In this document: positions 1-11,471 of the stretch, piece after piece
Position numbering within the stretch: the stretch's first letter is position 1
Layout of the letters: each line of letters starts with the position of its first letter
Origin: a virus
Strand: one strand, 5' to 3'
IMG/VR virus record: IMGVR_UViG_3300022748_000043
Coordinates: 1-25,250 of that record
DNA length: 25,250 nucleotides
Notes under the pieces: generated by a model
The model's input: only the letters and a program-made list of their open reading frames with translations
Told to the model about the DNA's origin: nothing
The model's database searches: none
Made by a program: the position numbers and the translations under genes

Positions 1-3000
1 CGAACCACTTGGCCGGGGGACTTGTCCAGTTCAGCCAGTTGGTCTAGGGTCAAGAAGCCCAGCTTCAGCTTGTGCAGGGTTTCCTTGGGGCTAGTGATCG
101 CGGCGTCCAGCCACTCGCCAGCCTTGGCGAAAACACCAGCGGGTTGCGAGGCTTCTTTACCGAAGCGCATGCGCTGACGATCTGCGGCCACTTGGCTGCC
201 AACGCGGAAGATGTTCTTGTCGCTAAACAAGATGCGGTTGTATGTGCGTGGGTTCTCTGCCAGAGAAATTTCAGATTCGTGCTTGTCCAACCAGTCGAGC
301 GCCTTGGTCTCGAACAGGTCTTTGGTTTTGCGCTTCGCGTCAGCACGAGCTTGTTCTTCGTCGAAAGGAACTTTGAACTTCTCAGCGGATTCTTTGTCAG
401 TCTTGTAGAACATGCGCTCGTAGTACGCCTGCTTAGACTCATGCATTGCTCTGACGTGGGCGACCCCGTTCTGAAGCAGGCTTCGCAGCATGCCCATCTC
501 GAAAGTCAGCTTATCGTCTTTGGCCGCATAGGCAGCTCGGGCGGCATCACGCAGCTCATCCCGGTTGTAGGATTTACCACGGAACTGAATGACCTTTGTG
601 GCCGTACCACGGCTACGAGCGTCCAAGTGTTTGATGCCTGCGATACCGGCTTCTTCAAGCAGCAGTGACGCAGCTTTATGGAATTCCCCTTGCTGGACAG
701 CTTTGTCAAACGCAGCACCCTTGCCGACGAGGACGTCATCCATGATTAAGCGGCTCAGCAAGCCAAGGTCATTCTCGCCAGTACCAAACAGGTCTCGCCC
801 AGTAAGCTCATCCACATCAGTGTTAGTGCGGTCTACTACTTCATCCGCGATTGGATCGAGCAAAACTTTGATGGCGTCCCGGACACGCGGAGGTTGGTCG
901 GCCACGACGGCGTTGTAATTAAACAACTCATCGTCAGCCACGGCGGTGTCGACGCGCATGAGGTTACCCTCTGGCTCGGCAGTAGATCGGGCAGTGGCTT
1001 TTTCAAGTGCCGCTTGTTGCTCATCATTAAACGCGAGGGCACCCTTGGCGTCAACAATGTTATTCAGGCTACGAGACTCAGTCTGGCCAACCATGCGCCC
1101 ATCGAGGTACTTGACAGTAACGAGCAAATCACCATTCGCTTTGGCCCTGATCCCAGATTGCGGCACCAGAACAAGTTTTTCACCTTGGTGGTTATAGTAA
1201 TTTTTAAGAAGTGCGTCCGGTTGAATACCTGCGTCCGAAAAAGCTGCCCACAACAGTTTGGGTGCTCCTGCTTTCCGACGCACGTCAGCTTCGTGGTAGC
1301 CCTTGGCGATGCCATAGCGTTCTGCGAGGTATGTGCCCCAACCGTATGCAGTAGCCCCTTCTCCAGAGCCAATGTACTTGTTACGGAAGTTGCGGAAGCT
1401 CGCGGCAGTGCCGTGATACACGCCTGACATCTCCAAGCGAGCAGCACCGAAGGCCATATCCACTACGTCTTGAGCGGTCATGGACTCAGGGTTGTACCCT
1501 AGCCTACGTACTGCAACCTTGAACGCAGCCCACAGTGTGCGGAACCACTCACGTAAGGCGCTGGATTCTTTCACTGTAGCTGTTGGGTCGATACCCGCTT
1601 GGACAGCTTCTTCAATGAAGTACGCCAACAGTTCTGCGTCGTAGTCTGCGTCAGGGGTATTTGCGTTAAGCACACGCATTTCAGCACGGGCGGCCAAGGT
1701 GACTTCGTTTGTGTCAGCGTCAGAGTTCGTCCAGCTTTTAATCTGGGCAACAAGGCGGTCGTACGTTGCTTTCGGCAACAAGTTCTCTAGGCCCAAGTGA
1801 GCCCCGACCTCGTGCATAAACTTGGCACGCCCCATACCTTTTTCGATACGGTTGGCGATCAGATAGGCACGGCCATTTACGGCAACACCATATGCACCTT
1901 CGACGGCGAGCACAGCTCCGATTTGCTGCACAACTTTGTCAGCGGAGTTTGTCAGGTCTTCAACCGAGTTAACCACTGTCAGCTTGCGCGCTGAGACTGA
2001 AGTGCGGACAAAGTCTTCAATTTCTTTGGTCAGCTCCGCAGCGGTGTACGGGTTCTTAGCGCGGACATCCTTACCGAACTTGGCGTTACCAGAGAACATG
2101 GTGTTCAAAGAAGCCAGTGTCAGCGTACCTTGGTGCGCTTGGTCTTCTACCTGAGCACGCTCGCGGGCATCCAAGGCTTCGTATGGGGGAAGCAGGTTTG
2201 TGGATTCAGCCAGAGCTTCGTACTGCTCTTGCGGAGTTTTTATTTCTTCTTGCTTGGGCTCAGTGACAGCGTCAATAATGTCGCCTTCAACCATGCTAGC
2301 CAGCATCTTCTCGTCTGATACTACACCTTGGGGCCCTAGGTTTAGCGCAGCAAATCCTTCACCATCAGGCTTAACGGTAACGGCCTCAATTTTTTCTGGG
2401 GTCGCCTTGTTGCGAACAATAGTTACCGTGGCTGCTTTGCCTTCGAAGGTGACGCGGTGCTTGGTTTTTTCTTCGCCACTTTCGCGGGTAGCTTTGCGTC
2501 CTTCGGCGTTTCTTTTGCCCACCGCTTCGCTACCTCCGGCTCGTTTGCGAACAGGAACTTCCTCTGGGCTTTCGACTTGAACGGCATTTTCCGGCTCCTT
2601 TGGTGCTTGCTTACCAGCCATCTCGCGGACGCGAGCTTTCTCTTTCTTCTCAGCCTCGGCAATCTTTGTAGTCAGATCGGCAACTTGCTTCTCGAGGTCT
2701 TGTACGCGCTCATCGTTGGCTTCGGTGGCAGCCTCCAGCTCATTGGACAAGTCCAAATACTGCTGCATCAAGGCTTCCATCTTGTTGCCTTCTTCGGCCA
2801 AGTCGGATACGTTGGTGCGGTCTACCTTGCCAGTGCCTTTGCCTTGGTTGTCAGTACGCTCTTTGACGTTTTGAATTTCCAAGCCAGCGTTGATGAGGTC
2901 ACCCTCATTGATTTCCGTGCCCTGCTGCGCGGCCAGACCACCTTCGTAGGCGTCATGGATAACTTGCAGCGCATCGAGGGCTTCCAGTACGCTGATACCA

Positions 3001-5348
3001 GATCGCTCGGCTTGCACGTTGACAGCGGCCATGAACTGGTCGATGTGCTTTGTAATGAATCGTGGGAACGACTCACCCTTGTCGGTAACTGCCTCAGACG
3101 CCAATTCCTTGACGTATTGCACAGTGACACCGTACTCCTTGGCCAATGCGGCGTAATCGCCACGTTGGGTTTTCTCGGTCAACAGCAGTAACAAGTCGAC
3201 CTTGCGGTCAGACTTGTAAATCATGCGAAGCGCAGAGCGGATTAAGTCGGGGACTTCTTCAACTCGTTGTTCTTCAGCTGCCTGCTCTTGTTGAACTGGA
3301 GGAACTGCCCCAAGATTTTCATTAGCGAGTCGTTCTCCGGTGACTTGGGCGGCACTTGGAACGGTAGCTTGGGCTGCTTGGGCATTTACTTGCCCTTGCC
3401 CTTGCCCCGGCCCGACAGGCTCGGATACGCCAACACTGGCACCTGCATTGGCTGCTGGCCGTACTCCGCTTGTTGACGGCTGTCCAGCTTGGATGTCAAG
3501 CGGTCCCGCTCCGACACTTCCTGCTCCGACGGGTTGAACTTCAGTGGGTCGTAAAAGCCCAGTTCGCTCATCGCCTGTTTTTCTTGTTCCGCCTTCGACT
3601 GGTACTTCTCGAAGCCCGGCATTGTTTTGCAGTTGCAGTTTTCCATTTTTAGCTCCTTTAGCTAGTTGCTCGGCTTGGTAGCCGGTAGTGTCTTGCCCGG
3701 TAAGGGCTTGGTGAATTGCATTGACCTGCTCGAGCTTGTCGCCTTTGAGCTGGGTGGATTGGTCGTTCAGAATAGCCGCAGCTTCGTCCACAGAATCCAC
3801 ATGAGCGATCTGAAACTGGTTAGCGACTTTACCTACGGCCTGAAAGCCTTTATCCACGGATGCCATGATGTCATTGGCATTGAACTTGTACTTAATGAGC
3901 TGGCCGCCAGTCTCCGCATTTGCCTTAGTGATGGCTTGTGCGAGCTGCACCTGTTGCTCAGGCATCTTGGATGTGAACGTGGCAATGGCGTTGGCCACTG
4001 CTGGGATATTTGGGCCGTAGACCTTCTGGCCGAACGCGCTGCCCACTGCGGGTGTAGCTGGATTAACCACGCCAAATTGTTGTGCGGCTTGGTCAGCAGC
4101 TTGAGCCTGCTGAGCTTGTGCTTGTTGCTGTGCAGCTTGCTGCTGCGCTTGCTGTTGTGCCTGCGCGATTTCAGTAGTTCCACCCGACACAGCTGGTTGT
4201 TGCATTTGCGCAACAGGAACTTGAACGATCTCGCCGTCTTCGGTGACGTGCTCGCGCATAGCAGGTGTTTGGAACTGCTGCGTAGTAATGTCTGGTTGGG
4301 CAATGTCCTTTTGCTTTACAGCTTGGGAAATCTCACCGGATGGCTGACCAGCGGGAGCTGGCGCTTGGTTTGAACCGGGCAAAATAGCGGGAGCACGGCT
4401 ACGAATACCACCGGGCATGCCCAGCAAACCTTCGACCAAGCCACCCGCGACGCCAGCGTTAAGGTATTGAGAGCGAGCCTCCTCAGAAGTCAACTCTTTA
4501 CCAACAGCCTGCTCCATGCCAGTCTGAAGAATTTCAGATGTAGCACCTGTTGCGCCTTGTGTGGCCCCAGCCTTGAGAGTGCGTTGAAGTAAGTTGCCAG
4601 TAAAACCGCTACCGTGGGCTAGGCGACCAACCAGCATGGCTTCAGGCAGAGTCTCTGCTAGCGCATAAGCGGGAGATGCCAGCAAAGCTGTACGACCTGC
4701 GTTCTCATCCCCGCCCTCACGGGCAGATTGGTACAGGGAGCCAACAGCTTGTCCTTCGTTAAATGCAGCGCCACCGACAATTTGCTTACCAAAAGTCTGA
4801 CCTGCCTCAGAGGCAGCGCGGCGAGCGGCGACACTAGCGCCAGCTTCAAGACCGCCGCCGCCAAGGGCACGAGGTAACAGAGCCCCAGCCCGGGACAGGG
4901 CAGCAGGAACAGCAGCTTCAGGAGCGACCATGCCCATGCCGATTGCACCGACCACGTTGGGAATTTGTTTGGCTACTTGGTACCCAAGGTATGGCAATGC
5001 CGAGCTTAGTGACTGATCTTCAACACGTTCAAGTTCTGGGCGGCCAGCAATACGAGCTTCAAGTGCGTTAACGTCTGCACGCTTATTCAACCAGTCGCGG
5101 GCTTTATCTGCCCCGGCCACATCGGCAAGTGCTGCACCAGCACTGTAACCCAGCCCTTGAAGTTCATCAATCCCAGAGGAAAAACCAGCACCGATCGCCC
5201 CACGTTTCTTGCCGGGAGTAACACCGAACATTTGCGCGGTGTCTTGGATGTCCATCCCTGTACGTTGCGATACCCAGTCTAAGATTTCTGCGTCCGACGC
5301 ATCTTTGGCGTCGGGGTACATGTCCCGCAATTGTGCGATGGATGGCAT
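1..5348 (-). CDS. Giant polyvalent virion (ejection) protein with zincin and ADP-ribosyltransferase domains, C-terminus beyond window
   Basis: One frame stays open from ATG at 5348 to the window edge (1782 codons, no stop). GGGAG lies 6 bases before the ATG. Residues 1-240 are Ala/Gly-rich with hydrophobic helices (about 105-145), as in the N-terminus of large phage virion proteins. A Gln/Ala-rich stretch follows (about 393-427), then a Gly/Pro/Gln linker (568-655), a helical segment, a coiled coil (about 853-910) and a charged linker (921-976). HEVGAH (H1179, E1180, H1183) with a downstream Glu near 1246 is a zinc-peptidase motif. Residues 1308-1600 look like a complete polyvalent-type ADP-ribosyltransferase: VYHGT (1310-1314), GSGEGATAYGWGTYLAE (1327-1343) and AGIAGIKHLDARSRG (1567-1581). 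The gene is last after gp14- and gp15-position genes, the place of T7 gp16, so I infer it is packaged and ejected. I saw no lytic transglycosylase domain. The cellular substrate is unknown. Confidence 0.9.
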   Translation of the reverse strand, partial: MPSIAQLRDMYPDAKDASDAEILDWVSQRTGMDIQDTAQMFGVTPGKKRGAIGAGFSSGIDELQGLGYSAGAALADVAGADKARDWLNKRADVNALEARIAGRPELERVEDQSLSSALPYLGYQVAKQIPNVVGAIGMGMVAPEAAVPAALSRAGALLPRALGGGGLEAGASVAARRAASEAGQTFGKQIVGGAAFNEGQAVGSLYQSAREGGDENAGRTALLASPAYALAETLPEAMLVGRLAHGSGFTGNLLQRTLKAGATQGATGATSEILQTGMEQAVGKELTSEEARSQYLNAGVAGGLVEGLLGMPGGIRSRAPAILPGSNQAPAPAGQPSGEISQAVKQKDIAQPDITTQQFQTPAMREHVTEDGEIVQVPVAQMQQPAVSGGTTEIAQAQQQAQQQAAQQQAQAQQAQAADQAAQQFGVVNPATPAVGSAFGQKVYGPNIPAVANAIATFTSKMPEQQVQLAQAITKANAETGGQLIKYKFNANDIMASVDKGFQAVGKVANQFQIAHVDSVDEAAAILNDQSTQLKGDKLEQVNAIHQALTGQDTTGYQAEQLAKGAKNGKLQLQNNAGLREVPVEGGTRKTGDERTGLLRPTEVQPVGAGSVGAGPLDIQAGQPSTSGVRPAANAGASVGVSEPVGPGQGQGQVNAQAAQATVPSAAQVTGERLANENLGAVPPVQQEQAAEEQRVEEVPDLIRSALRMIYKSDRKVDLLLLLTEKTQRGDYAALAKEYGVTVQYVKELASEAVTDKGESFPRFITKHIDQFMAAVNVQAERSGISVLEALDALQVIHDAYEGGLAAQQGTEINEGDLINAGLEIQNVKERTDNQGKGTGKVDRTNVSDLAEEGNKMEALMQQYLDLSNELEAATEANDERVQDLEKQVADLTTKIAEAEKKEKARVREMAGKQAPKEPENAVQVESPEEVPVRKRAGGSEAVGKRNAEGRKATRESGEEKTKHRVTFEGKAATVTIVRNKATPEKIEAVTVKPDGEGFAALNLGPQGVVSDEKMLASMVEGDIIDAVTEPKQEEIKTPQEQYEALAESTNLLPPYEALDARERAQVEDQAHQGTLTLASLNTMFSGNAKFGKDVRAKNPYTAAELTKEIEDFVRTSVSARKLTVVNSVEDLTNSADKVVQQIGAVLAVEGAYGVAVNGRAYLIANRIEKGMGRAKFMHEVGAHLGLENLLPKATYDRLVAQIKSWTNSDADTNEVTLAARAEMRVLNANTPDADYDAELLAYFIEEAVQAGIDPTATVKESSALREWFRTLWAAFKVAVRRLGYNPESMTAQDVVDMAFGAARLEMSGVYHGTAASFRNFRNKYIGSGEGATAYGWGTYLAERYGIAKGYHEADVRRKAGAPKLLWAAFSDAGIQPDALLKNYYNHQGEKLVLVPQSGIRAKANGDLLVTVKYLDGRMVGQTESRSLNNIVDAKGALAFNDEQQAALEKATARSTAEPEGNLMRVDTAVADDELFNYNAVVADQPPRVRDAIKVLLDPIADEVVDRTNTDVDELTGRDLFGTGENDLGLLSRLIMDDVLVGKGAAFDKAVQQGEFHKAASLLLEEAGIAGIKHLDARSRGTATKVIQFRGKSYNRDELRDAARAAYAAKDDKLTFEMGMLRSLLQNGVAHVRAMHESKQAYYERMFYKTDKESAEKFKVPFDEEQARADAKRKTKDLFETKALDWLDKHESEISLAENPRTYNRILFSDKNIFRVGSQVAADRQRMRFGKEASQPAGVFAKAGEWLDAAITSPKETLHKLKLGFLTLDQLAELDKSPGQVV
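2423..2587 (-). CDS. Nested small basic phage protein (54 aa), +1 frame inside the giant gene
   Basis: ATG at 2587 is preceded by AAAGGAG (2595-2601) with a 7-base spacer, an ideal ribosome-binding site that has no purpose in the middle of another gene. The product begins MPFKSKAQRKFLF, continues with EVAKRWAKETP and LPAKVAKKK, and ends in a Lys/Ser-rich tail. From memory this pattern matches a widespread family of short basic phage proteins of unknown function; I could not search to confirm. The open frame extends further upstream to 2662, but that part is arginine-rich shadow sequence without a ribosome-binding site. In the main frame the same bases encode a charged linker (residues 921-976) rich in CGA, AGA and GGA codons. 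The nested frame uses ordinary codons, which suggests it is the older of the two. Confidence 0.72.
   Translation of the reverse strand: MPFKSKAQRKFLFANEPEVAKRWAKETPKDAKLPAKVAKKKPSTASPSKAKQPR
3386..3646 (-). CDS. Second nested small protein (86 aa), +1 frame inside the giant gene
   Basis: ATG at 3646 has AAAGGAG (3653-3659) upstream with a 6-base spacer. The product starts MENCNCKTMPGFEKYQSK, is hydrophilic with a mixed, gene-like composition (GFYDPLKFNPSEQEVSERD in the middle), and ends in a repeated Gly-Lys tail before TAA. I do not recognise the family. The two N-terminal cysteines (C4, C6) and the basic tail are its most obvious marks. The overlapping main-frame segment (residues 568-655) is Gly/Pro/Val/Gln-rich. 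By hand count about 8 of its 19 glycines are GGA, a codon seldom used elsewhere in that gene. This frame is the same +1 phase as the nested gene at 2423-2587. Both the good initiation site and the codon pattern favour a real gene, but homology is untested. Confidence 0.62.
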   Translation of the reverse strand: MENCNCKTMPGFEKYQSKAEQEKQAMSELGFYDPLKFNPSEQEVSERDRLTSKLDSRQQAEYGQQPMQVPVLAYPSLSGRGKGKGK

Positions 5349-7651: not shown

Positions 7652-8068
7652 TTAGCTCCTAATCCACTTACATTCAGATTTGAGCATGCCGTACAGGATA
7701 GCGTCTTCGCCGTCCTCGAACGCTTGGCGTATCACCCCCTCTTGGATGAATCCTACATGCTCGTCAAATTTTCTAGCTGCTTGATTACTCACCCGAACAA
7801 GCCCTGTAACTCTTTTGCAGTTGAGCTGGATGAACGGGTAGGCAAAGAAGCGAAACATAAACTCTTTGGTTGTCCAGCGTTTACCGGGCTCTGCTGCGAC
7901 GTGCATGCAGATCGAGGCTTTCGTGTACATGTTGTAGACCACACCAGCAATCAACTGGCCATCTTCTTCAACACCAATAGCTATGTCATCATCTCCGAGG
8001 TCTTCTCCGATACGCTCAGCGACCCACGAACGAACGCGGGCGTCTTGACCATATACCATAGACTTCAT
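7652..8068 (-). CDS. GNAT-family N-acetyltransferase-like protein (138 aa, gp13 position)
   Basis: The fold signature is in the C-terminal half: a strand (ICMHVAAEPGK), a helix with aromatic residues (MFRFFAYPFIQLNCKRV), then NQAARKFDEHVGFIQEGVIR and a final strand ending AILYGML. The N-A-A-x-K-F...GF-x-x-EG pattern is typical of GNAT acetyltransferases of the RimJ/RimL kind, which transfer acetyl from acetyl-CoA to an amine. The substrate is unknown. T7 gene 13 lies in the same place between nozzle and gp14 genes and is, as I recall, also 138 residues and GNAT-like. The role could therefore be in virion assembly rather than classical acetylation. The ATG at 8068 has only a weak upstream AGGGT. 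A second in-frame ATG lies at 8059. Confidence 0.82.
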   Translation of the reverse strand: MKSMVYGQDARVRSWVAERIGEDLGDDDIAIGVEEDGQLIAGVVYNMYTKASICMHVAAEPGKRWTTKEFMFRFFAYPFIQLNCKRVTGLVRVSNQAARKFDEHVGFIQEGVIRQAFEDGEDAILYGMLKSECKWIRS

Positions 8069-10411: not shown

Positions 10412-11026
10412 TTACGCAAGCGCAGTTCCAGAGTCAATTAACCCTAGTGCCATCTGCGTGTGTTTCACGCGGTCATCTAGACCAATCGTGCCGCCGTTAA
10501 TCCTTTTCGTCAAGGCTACCCAGTCACCTGCTTCCGCCAGTTGGTTGCAGCTATGCGTAGACCAGAACCAGCCAGCGGTCAGAGCTGCGTACTTAGGCGA
10601 AGAGACCAGATCAGGCTGGGCTACGAAGTCCACCCCAAGAGCCTTACTAGCATGGTAGTAATTAGCGTGGCCAGTAAGTTGGATACAGCCGCGACCGCGA
10701 AAACGCCAGCCGTCACCAGAAGCTTCATCCCGATTCCCCATACGTGAGCTGTACACGTTGTTGGCGATTTTTCGTGGATTCCCGGCGTAGGCATTTGCAA
10801 TTTCAAGGGTAGGGAACCGCTTGGCCCACAGCTTCATCAGCGTGGCGGCCTTGTAGTTCAGGTTTTCTTCGAGGATTCGGAACTGAGCACACTCATGCCC
10901 GCACTGGCCAATGAAGGCTGCCTGCTTCTTCGGTGTGTCGATCCCAAACCGGGCGAACGTATCGTTCAGCGCGTCGACCCAGATAGGGTCAATGTGCATG
11001 GCTTTAAGTTGCTCAATGGTTACCAT
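10412..11026 (-). CDS. Endolysin, GH19 chitinase/lysozyme-like (204 aa)
   Basis: The sequence matches the GH19 glycoside hydrolase family as used by phages to cut peptidoglycan glycan strands during lysis. AAFIGQCGHECAQF carries the catalytic glutamate E45, followed by ILEENLNY with a second acidic residue and by YSSRMGN. The stretch WRFRGRGCIQLTGHANY is the substrate-cleft signature, and WFWSTHSCNQLAEAGDW and KRINGGTIGLDDR complete the fold. No signal peptide or membrane segment is seen, so release into the periplasm should depend on a holin. The gene starts 14 bases inside the Rz gene, with GAGAGG about 6 bases before ATG 11026. Length is normal for single-domain phage GH19 endolysins. Confidence 0.93.
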   Translation of the reverse strand: MVTIEQLKAMHIDPIWVDALNDTFARFGIDTPKKQAAFIGQCGHECAQFRILEENLNYKAATLMKLWAKRFPTLEIANAYAGNPRKIANNVYSSRMGNRDEASGDGWRFRGRGCIQLTGHANYYHASKALGVDFVAQPDLVSSPKYAALTAGWFWSTHSCNQLAEAGDWVALTKRINGGTIGLDDRVKHTQMALGLIDSGTALA

Positions 11027-11471
11027 TTGCGGCCTCTCTTACTTGCTCGTAGGCTGCGATGCAGGCGTTGAGCTGGTTGATGGCGCGGTCCCCGTCGGCT
11101 GCGATTTGAGCAATAAGTCGGAGAGTCTCGATGTCAGATTCGCTTCCCGCTTGGTTCCCACTTCCACTGGAAGGGGTGGCACCTGCAACGGCTTGTACGC
11201 AACCTGAGGAGGGGAGGCGCACCCGGCCAGAGTTGATAAGACGATCAAGGTCAGACTGTTTTTTAGCGATAGCATCATTGGCATCCTTCAGTTCGGTTGA
11301 GGTGGCACTGAGTTGTTCATTCAGCTTGTGCTCGGCTTGGCGCACCTGCTCATTCTTGAGCGCAATCTCTGCCTGCATCTCTTGGTCTCGCTCAGCAAAA
11401 CCAGCATGGTGCCCGTAGAAGTAAGAGGCGATCGCAAAGACGATGGCCCCCAAGATCAGATGAGGGTTCAT
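11013..11471 (-). CDS. Rz: Rz-like inner-membrane spanin subunit (152 aa)
   Basis: The N-terminus (MNPHLILGAIVFAIASYFYG) is a single membrane anchor. A long Gln/Glu/Lys-rich coiled coil follows (about 27-80), then a Gly/Ser linker and a C-terminal helical part with a cysteine (INQLNACIAAYEQV). This is the layout of i-spanins, which link inner and outer membranes and disrupt the outer membrane in the last step of lysis. A lipoprotein reading frame nested in the other frame supports the call, since Rz1 genes are often embedded in Rz. The start overlaps the stop of the upstream two-TM gene by ATGA, indicating coupled translation. Confidence 0.87.
   Translation of the reverse strand: MNPHLILGAIVFAIASYFYGHHAGFAERDQEMQAEIALKNEQVRQAEHKLNEQLSATSTELKDANDAIAKKQSDLDRLINSGRVRLPSSGCVQAVAGATPSSGSGNQAGSESDIETLRLIAQIAADGDRAINQLNACIAAYEQVREAANGNH
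11039..11278 (-). CDS. Rz1: Rz1-like outer-membrane lipoprotein spanin, nested in Rz (80 aa)
   Basis: The frame lies entirely within Rz. The product begins with a lipoprotein signal (SLKNSLTLIVLSTLAGCASP) whose LAGC lipobox places the lipidated cysteine about 20 residues in. The mature part is proline-rich (VAYKPLQVPPLPVEV) and ends in a Ser/Thr/Pro tail, as expected for o-spanins. It should pair with the Rz product across the periplasm. Several ATGs are clustered at 11284, 11278 and 11275; AAGGA is correctly spaced for 11278 or 11275 and too close to 11284, so I chose 11278. Confidence 0.88.
   Translation of the reverse strand: MMLSLKNSLTLIVLSTLAGCASPPQVAYKPLQVPPLPVEVGTKREANLTSRLSDLLLKSQPTGTAPSTSSTPASQPTSK

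Follow-up and report, generated by a model that had tools for sequence, protein, structure and literature searches.

Evidence for a small phage gene within the +1 reading frame of a giant, putative virion gene

Introduction

Does a 54-codon reading frame inside the coding sequence of a giant phage gene encode a protein of its own, and if so, which of the two readings came first? Precedents exist for such arrangements: the +1 frame of Rz harbors Rz1, and gene callers miss genes of this kind (PMC6139136). Among viral overprinted genes, +1 internal overlaps and disorder are frequent (PMC8227390). Here, we address this question for the 25,250-base IMG/VR virus contig IMGVR_UViG_3300022748_000043, the whole length of which is termed "the window" below.

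Results

The host gene is a giant in a late virion gene setting

Terminase, portal/adaptor, major head protein, internal virion protein and lysis genes were recognized in the window, and we read their order as that of a tailed phage of the podovirus type. The giant comes last in this order; a complete relative comprises 2,650 amino acids. It shares its strand with the genes for terminase, portal, head and an internal virion protein (phrog_511) and so lies in a late virion gene setting. Its product is a putative virion or ejected protein of the polyvalent type, with weak matches to ART-PolyVal (E = 3e-4) and to ATLF, a lethal-factor-like metallopeptidase (E = 4.5e-4), both under the Pfam cut-off. 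The spacing of the HEVGAH motif in its conserved block differs from canonical HExxH. We found this giant in none of the cultured phage records, and the carriers of the nested genes described below are metagenomic contigs in every case.

N1 is a 54-residue reading frame with its own start site

The original prediction had drawn attention to a small frame at 2423-2587. These coordinates and the 54-residue length proved exact, to which we add that the frame, named N1 here, lies on the minus strand; read on the plus strand, the interval is interrupted by stops. The AAAGGAG box seven bases ahead of the internal ATG is present (2601-2595, ATG at 2587). Within the giant ORF, the N1 start has a nucleotide offset of 2761, which confirms the +1 register and places N1 wholly inside the giant's frame (Table 1).

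The product (MPFKSKAQRKFLFANEPEVAKRWAKETPKDAKLPAKVAKKKPSTASPSKAKQPR) carries 13 lysines and three arginines versus four acidic residues (pI 10.7), and neither a signal peptide nor a cysteine was found in it. Its predicted structure consists of two short helices followed by a lysine-rich tail, at middling confidence (mean pLDDT 72.6). Rare codons had also been expected in the overlapping main-frame linker. They do occur over N1, with AGA, GGA and AGT as the rarest, but the signal is weak (codon score 0.016 versus 0.123 ± 0.066 in the rest of the giant).

Table 1. Features of the window, and related loci carrying the further +1 genes N3 and N4
Feature	Position or carriers	Strand	Remarks
Host giant gene	3-5348	minus	1,782 codons inside the window; 3' end lost at contig end
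HEVGAH block of giant (main frame)	1419-2087	minus	conserved; landmark for finding related loci
N1 nested gene	2423-2587	minus	54 aa + stop (TAA); +1 register of giant; phrog_1375 family
N1 Shine-Dalgarno AAAGGAG	2595-2601	minus	7 bases ahead of ATG at 2587; duplex -7.9 kcal/mol
N2 nested gene	3386-3646	minus	86 aa + stop; +1 register; upstream of N1
N2 Shine-Dalgarno AAAGGAG	3653-3659	minus	6 bases ahead of ATG; duplex -7.9 kcal/mol
Rz-like spanin / nested +1 Rz1-like partner	11013-11471 / 11039-11284	minus	phrog_1327 and phrog_3198
N3	L010, L011, L021, L025, L102, L122		+1 nested after N2
N4	L091, L092, L093, L106, L110-L114		+1 nested at N2 place

N1 belongs to a widespread family of free-standing phage genes

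The start of N1 had been likened to a pattern of stand-alone small phage proteins, and profile searches bear this out: many homologues were found, both free-standing and nested. N1 matches phrog_1375, a PHROGs v4 family of unknown function, over residues 3-28 (E = 9e-4), as do 57 of 59 N1 relatives (best E = 4.6e-7). The two share the MPFKSKAQ start and a small basic product; the difference is that the family is usually free-standing, whereas N1 lies entirely within another coding frame. M1, P2, F3, S5, Q8 and A20 are invariant in the 59 sequences.

A scan of viral contigs yielded 374 confirmed N1 relatives, 80 of which were retained; E-values of the locus scans are relative to the candidate set. 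Many relatives stand alone as genes of about 41-60 codons, nearly all beginning at the same methionine. Their sampled neighbors match families of the terminase large subunit, portal, head-tail adaptor and major head protein. In annotated phage records, N1 homologues lie mostly in late regions and are unannotated or labeled "hypothetical"; at position 5001 of Phage C75C1 (L001) and 4001 of Synechococcus phage S-CBS2 (L003), free homologues have no gene annotation. At four loci (L067, L070, L085 and L086), the N1 sequence forms the N-terminal part of a longer free-standing protein of 192 amino acids, whose remaining portion may give a clue to what N1 does.

Searches of Pfam, NCBIfam and solved structures with N1 gave nothing usable and no sequence-related solved structure. 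Plausible matches of the N1 model in a fold search of a viral library were confined to uncharacterized small phage proteins, and a text search of papers for MPFKSKAQ found no occurrence.

Nesting of N1 recurs in related giants

A search with the HEVGAH block retrieved 80 loci. From these, the window and the first scan, we analyzed 72 giant ORFs, taking N1 as present where its score was above 30. N1 is nested in 39 of the 72 and absent from 33, and since about half of the giants lack it, N1 is not essential to the giant. Every nested copy found is in the +1 register within a long main-frame ORF, and those in giants retrieved through the HEVGAH block all lie upstream of it. Each of the 39 N1-carrying records searched contains exactly one copy, and no copy was found elsewhere in the 40 records whose giant lacks N1, many of which are fragments.

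Two giants without detectable similarity to that of the window (L053, L079), and a third with a short match only (L061), nevertheless carry N1 in +1. We also looked for relatives with an intact main frame and a broken nested frame. In the closest giant relative (L007, 65% identity), the nested frame is open and homologous. Giants without N1, such as L095 and L105, have an intact main frame and lack the gene altogether, with no recognizable broken copy; in L095, many stops interrupt the +1 frame and none the main frame. The original expectation of a conserved nested frame was thus upheld.

Separately, the giant of L148 contains a very divergent N1-like +1 ORF (MPYKSDAQRKKFHLLEQQGK..., score 22) 198 codons before the HEVGAH block. 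Nesting at L013/L014 was dropped as a candidate: the long ORF there is probably an N-terminal over-extension and shows no similarity to giants.

N1 is accompanied by further +1 genes

Scanning the +1 ORFs of the giants revealed three protein-like families besides N1, which we named N2, N3 and N4. The window itself holds N2, so that the original description of a single nested gene has to be amended: N1 is one member of a +1 gene set. The rare-codon signal of the main frame is far stronger over N2 (codon score -0.23) than over N1. In the viral contig scan, N2 occurs at 55 loci and is never free-standing. At 54 of them, the whole of N2 lies within a long main-frame ORF; at the remaining one, the contig ends inside N2 and the main frame is open up to that end. 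N2 is absent from PHROGs, from annotated phage records and from 84,980 bacterial and archaeal species genomes. Its structure was modeled at low confidence (pLDDT 59).

N4 takes the place of N2 in 13 giants, and the two are never found together. It starts with GTG or ATG, preceded in most copies by a Shine-Dalgarno sequence. N3 starts about 15 bases past the N2 stop in several giants, and 31 of the 39 N1 carriers also contain N2 or N4. The +1 array occupies low-complexity linkers of the giant late gene in the order N2 or N4, optionally N3, and then N1.

Near the N1 site of some giants without N1, there are protein-like +1 ORFs with Shine-Dalgarno-like sites (138 codons before the HEVGAH block in L139/L141, 139 in L165 and 131 in L132/L135), possibly representing more replaceable nested genes. 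A cluster beside the HEVGAH block ("N5"), part of which was flagged in L101/L102, was rejected as a gene, its ATG having no Shine-Dalgarno sequence and the main frame being conserved. In the +2 frame, the sole conserved cluster present in at least four loci has no Shine-Dalgarno site.

N1 appears to have been captured and exchanged

Giants that resemble each other around N1 can carry different N1 alleles. The window and L007 are 90% identical immediately upstream of N1 and 62% inside it; for L010 and L035, the values are 85% and 72%. At 90% identity, the N1 allele of L007 is instead close to that of L025, in which the flank upstream of N1 cannot be aligned. In an N1 tree of low resolution (48 columns), nested and free copies are interleaved, with about ten label changes, at least two of which are forced by well supported branches. 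The allele mismatches and the interleaved tree therefore point to replacement by recombination and to more than one capture. We propose that N1 came into the giant from free-standing genes and was subsequently swapped between giants.

Alternatively, the nested genes could have been born de novo in the giant by overprinting, with the free N1 copies having escaped from it. N2, known only in nested form, would fit such an origin. For N1, we consider it unlikely, given the interleaving and the occurrence of free N1 in diverse phages that are not related to this giant, among them cultured Streptomyces phages and a Synechococcus phage. Since free N1 is far wider in distribution than the giant, N1 is probably the older partner, and the giant's linker more likely the overprinted, younger reading. 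The original prediction of overprinting therefore stands as regards the nested overlap itself, with the linker rather than the small gene as the likelier overprinted sequence in the case of N1. N2 was either born inside the giant or survives only there.

Both frames are maintained, and the nested frame dominates in the overlap

When two genes overlap in +1, the third position of nested codons coincides with main position 1, and nested position 2 with main position 3. We counted differences over disjoint pairs (18 for the first 37 codons of N1, nine for N2); these are pair counts rather than a formal dual-frame codon model. At main positions 1/2/3, we observed 215/67/51 differences over N1 and 169/92/67 over N2, compared with 373/250/943 in a main-frame control region. 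Substitutions in the overlaps thus avoid main third positions, indicating that the small frame is the constrained one. A blind sliding scan (30 codons, main-frame alignments of giant pairs) flagged mainly the N1, N2, N3 and N4 intervals. Apart from these, it picked out a single interval each in L101/L102 and L091/L114 as well as a few windows containing just two or three differences. Many giants with unalignable flanks (18-25% identity) share N1 at 85-100% identity.

Nested starts are also distinguished by their ribosome-binding sites. A strong Shine-Dalgarno sequence precedes 82% of N1 and 95% of N2 starts versus 8% of control +1-register ATGs (n = 4,734; p = 1e-19 and 3e-14, respectively), an about tenfold enrichment for N1.

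For the main frame, we applied synonymous recoding with the codon usage of each giant. The median chance per copy of an open main frame is 0.0015 across N1 and 0.0005 across N2, so that nested copies steer clear of codons that would place a stop in it, and free N1 copies of similar GC3 often contain one to seven stops in the corresponding frame. Between N2 and N1, the main frames of the window and L007 are 90% identical, with 3/2/23 differences by codon position. Taken together, position counts for the nested frame, and stop avoidance and flanking constraint for the main frame, show at the sequence level that both frames are open and under constraint, with the nested one dominating in the overlap.

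These results bear on the idea that the main frame over the nested genes is an artefact and that the giant is in fact several proteins split by ordinary small genes. The main frame in the overlap is indeed of low complexity and weakly conserved, and the nested frame bears nearly all constraint. Nevertheless, we regard a split giant as very unlikely: none of the 39 nested N1 copies of the scan is crossed by a main-frame stop, and the same holds for N2, at the low chances just given; between N2 and N1, selection on the main frame is of the ordinary kind; and giants without N1 have one uninterrupted main frame despite, as in L095, a stop-filled +1 frame.

Even less credit can be given to N1 being the tail of a programmed frameshift product, with ribosomes leaving the main frame for +1 and terminating at the N1 stop. 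A same-strand +1 arrangement would permit this, but the start codon and Shine-Dalgarno sequence of N1 are kept and nearly all free homologues share its methionine, which fits independent initiation; moreover, N4 retains a start codon of its own (GTG or ATG), in most copies behind a Shine-Dalgarno sequence, and a separate slip site would be needed for each of the several +1 genes per giant. Finally, a chance +1 ORF that seems conserved through main-frame conservation, as do +1 translation clusters without a Shine-Dalgarno sequence elsewhere in the giants (downstream of the HEVGAH block, "N5"), is refuted for N1 by the position test, in which the main frame is the variable one and its third positions are the least changed, and by the free-standing homologues, and is further contradicted by the identity of N1 between unalignable flanks and by the Shine-Dalgarno enrichment.

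We thus conclude from sequence comparison that N1 is very probably a genuine small protein gene of family phrog_1375, fully nested in the giant's +1 frame. This degree of confidence applies to the nested gene and not to the function of its product.

Discussion

Predicted expression and possible function of the nested genes

Judged from their start sites, N1 and N2 would be made by independent internal initiation on the giant's own mRNA, and would therefore be present in the late period in which the virion proteins are produced. Based on gene neighborhood and charge only, we tentatively suggest that N1 could be an accessory of the head, of packaging or of ejection-protein loading. Late co-expression with the giant raises the slightly more speculative possibility that N2 is a partner of the giant.

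On the whole, we lean toward a model in which the giants are platforms for a hidden, swappable +1 operon, with fixed linker sites holding N2 or N4, N3 and N1. If so, some members of this operon were captured from free-standing genes and some exist nowhere else, and giant genes would contain an unseen layer of small phage proteins that are translated together with the giants.

Comparison with known systems

The nearest mechanism is that of Rz/Rz1 of phage lambda (PMC6139136), with which N1 shares complete nesting on the same strand in the +1 register, and of which the window contains its own example (Table 1). In contrast to Rz1, N1 is not a lysis gene and has no lipoprotein signal. Its giant host is of the virion type and not an i-spanin, and it carries at least two nested genes subject to replacement and exchange among phages. 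Gene E within D of phiX174 (PMC8227390) resembles N1 in its internal overlap, +1 shift and low-complexity main-frame linker. N1 differs in belonging to a tailed dsDNA phage whose genome is far larger, in forming part of a repeated array and in a frame that is apparently older than the host linker. The giant resembles the polyvalent proteins (PMC5512222) in its very large size and late-region gene; its matches to ART and lethal-factor-like metallopeptidase domains are weak and remain under curated cut-offs. The word "overlapping" does not occur in that paper. What sets the present case apart is the giant host gene, the presence of several nested genes per host, the replacement of one family by another and the proposed capture of a widespread free-standing gene.

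Same-strand nested genes tend to be rejected by gene callers, and whole protein families can therefore escape the databases. N2 is an example, with 55 viral loci and no match in PHROGs, annotated phage records or bacterial and archaeal genomes. A tailed phage does not face the limits on genome size that apply to tiny viruses, and yet at least two overlapping genes are maintained here in one host gene. The direction favored for N1, with the small gene older and the host linker younger, is the reverse of the usual overprinting story. More than 70 giants with differing nested contents represent a natural set for studying the origin and spread of overlapping genes and the constraint they place on the host protein.

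As a minor observation, the virion genes of the window include one at 7652-8068 (minus strand) for a 138-residue protein that, by eye only, resembles GNAT-type acetyltransferases.
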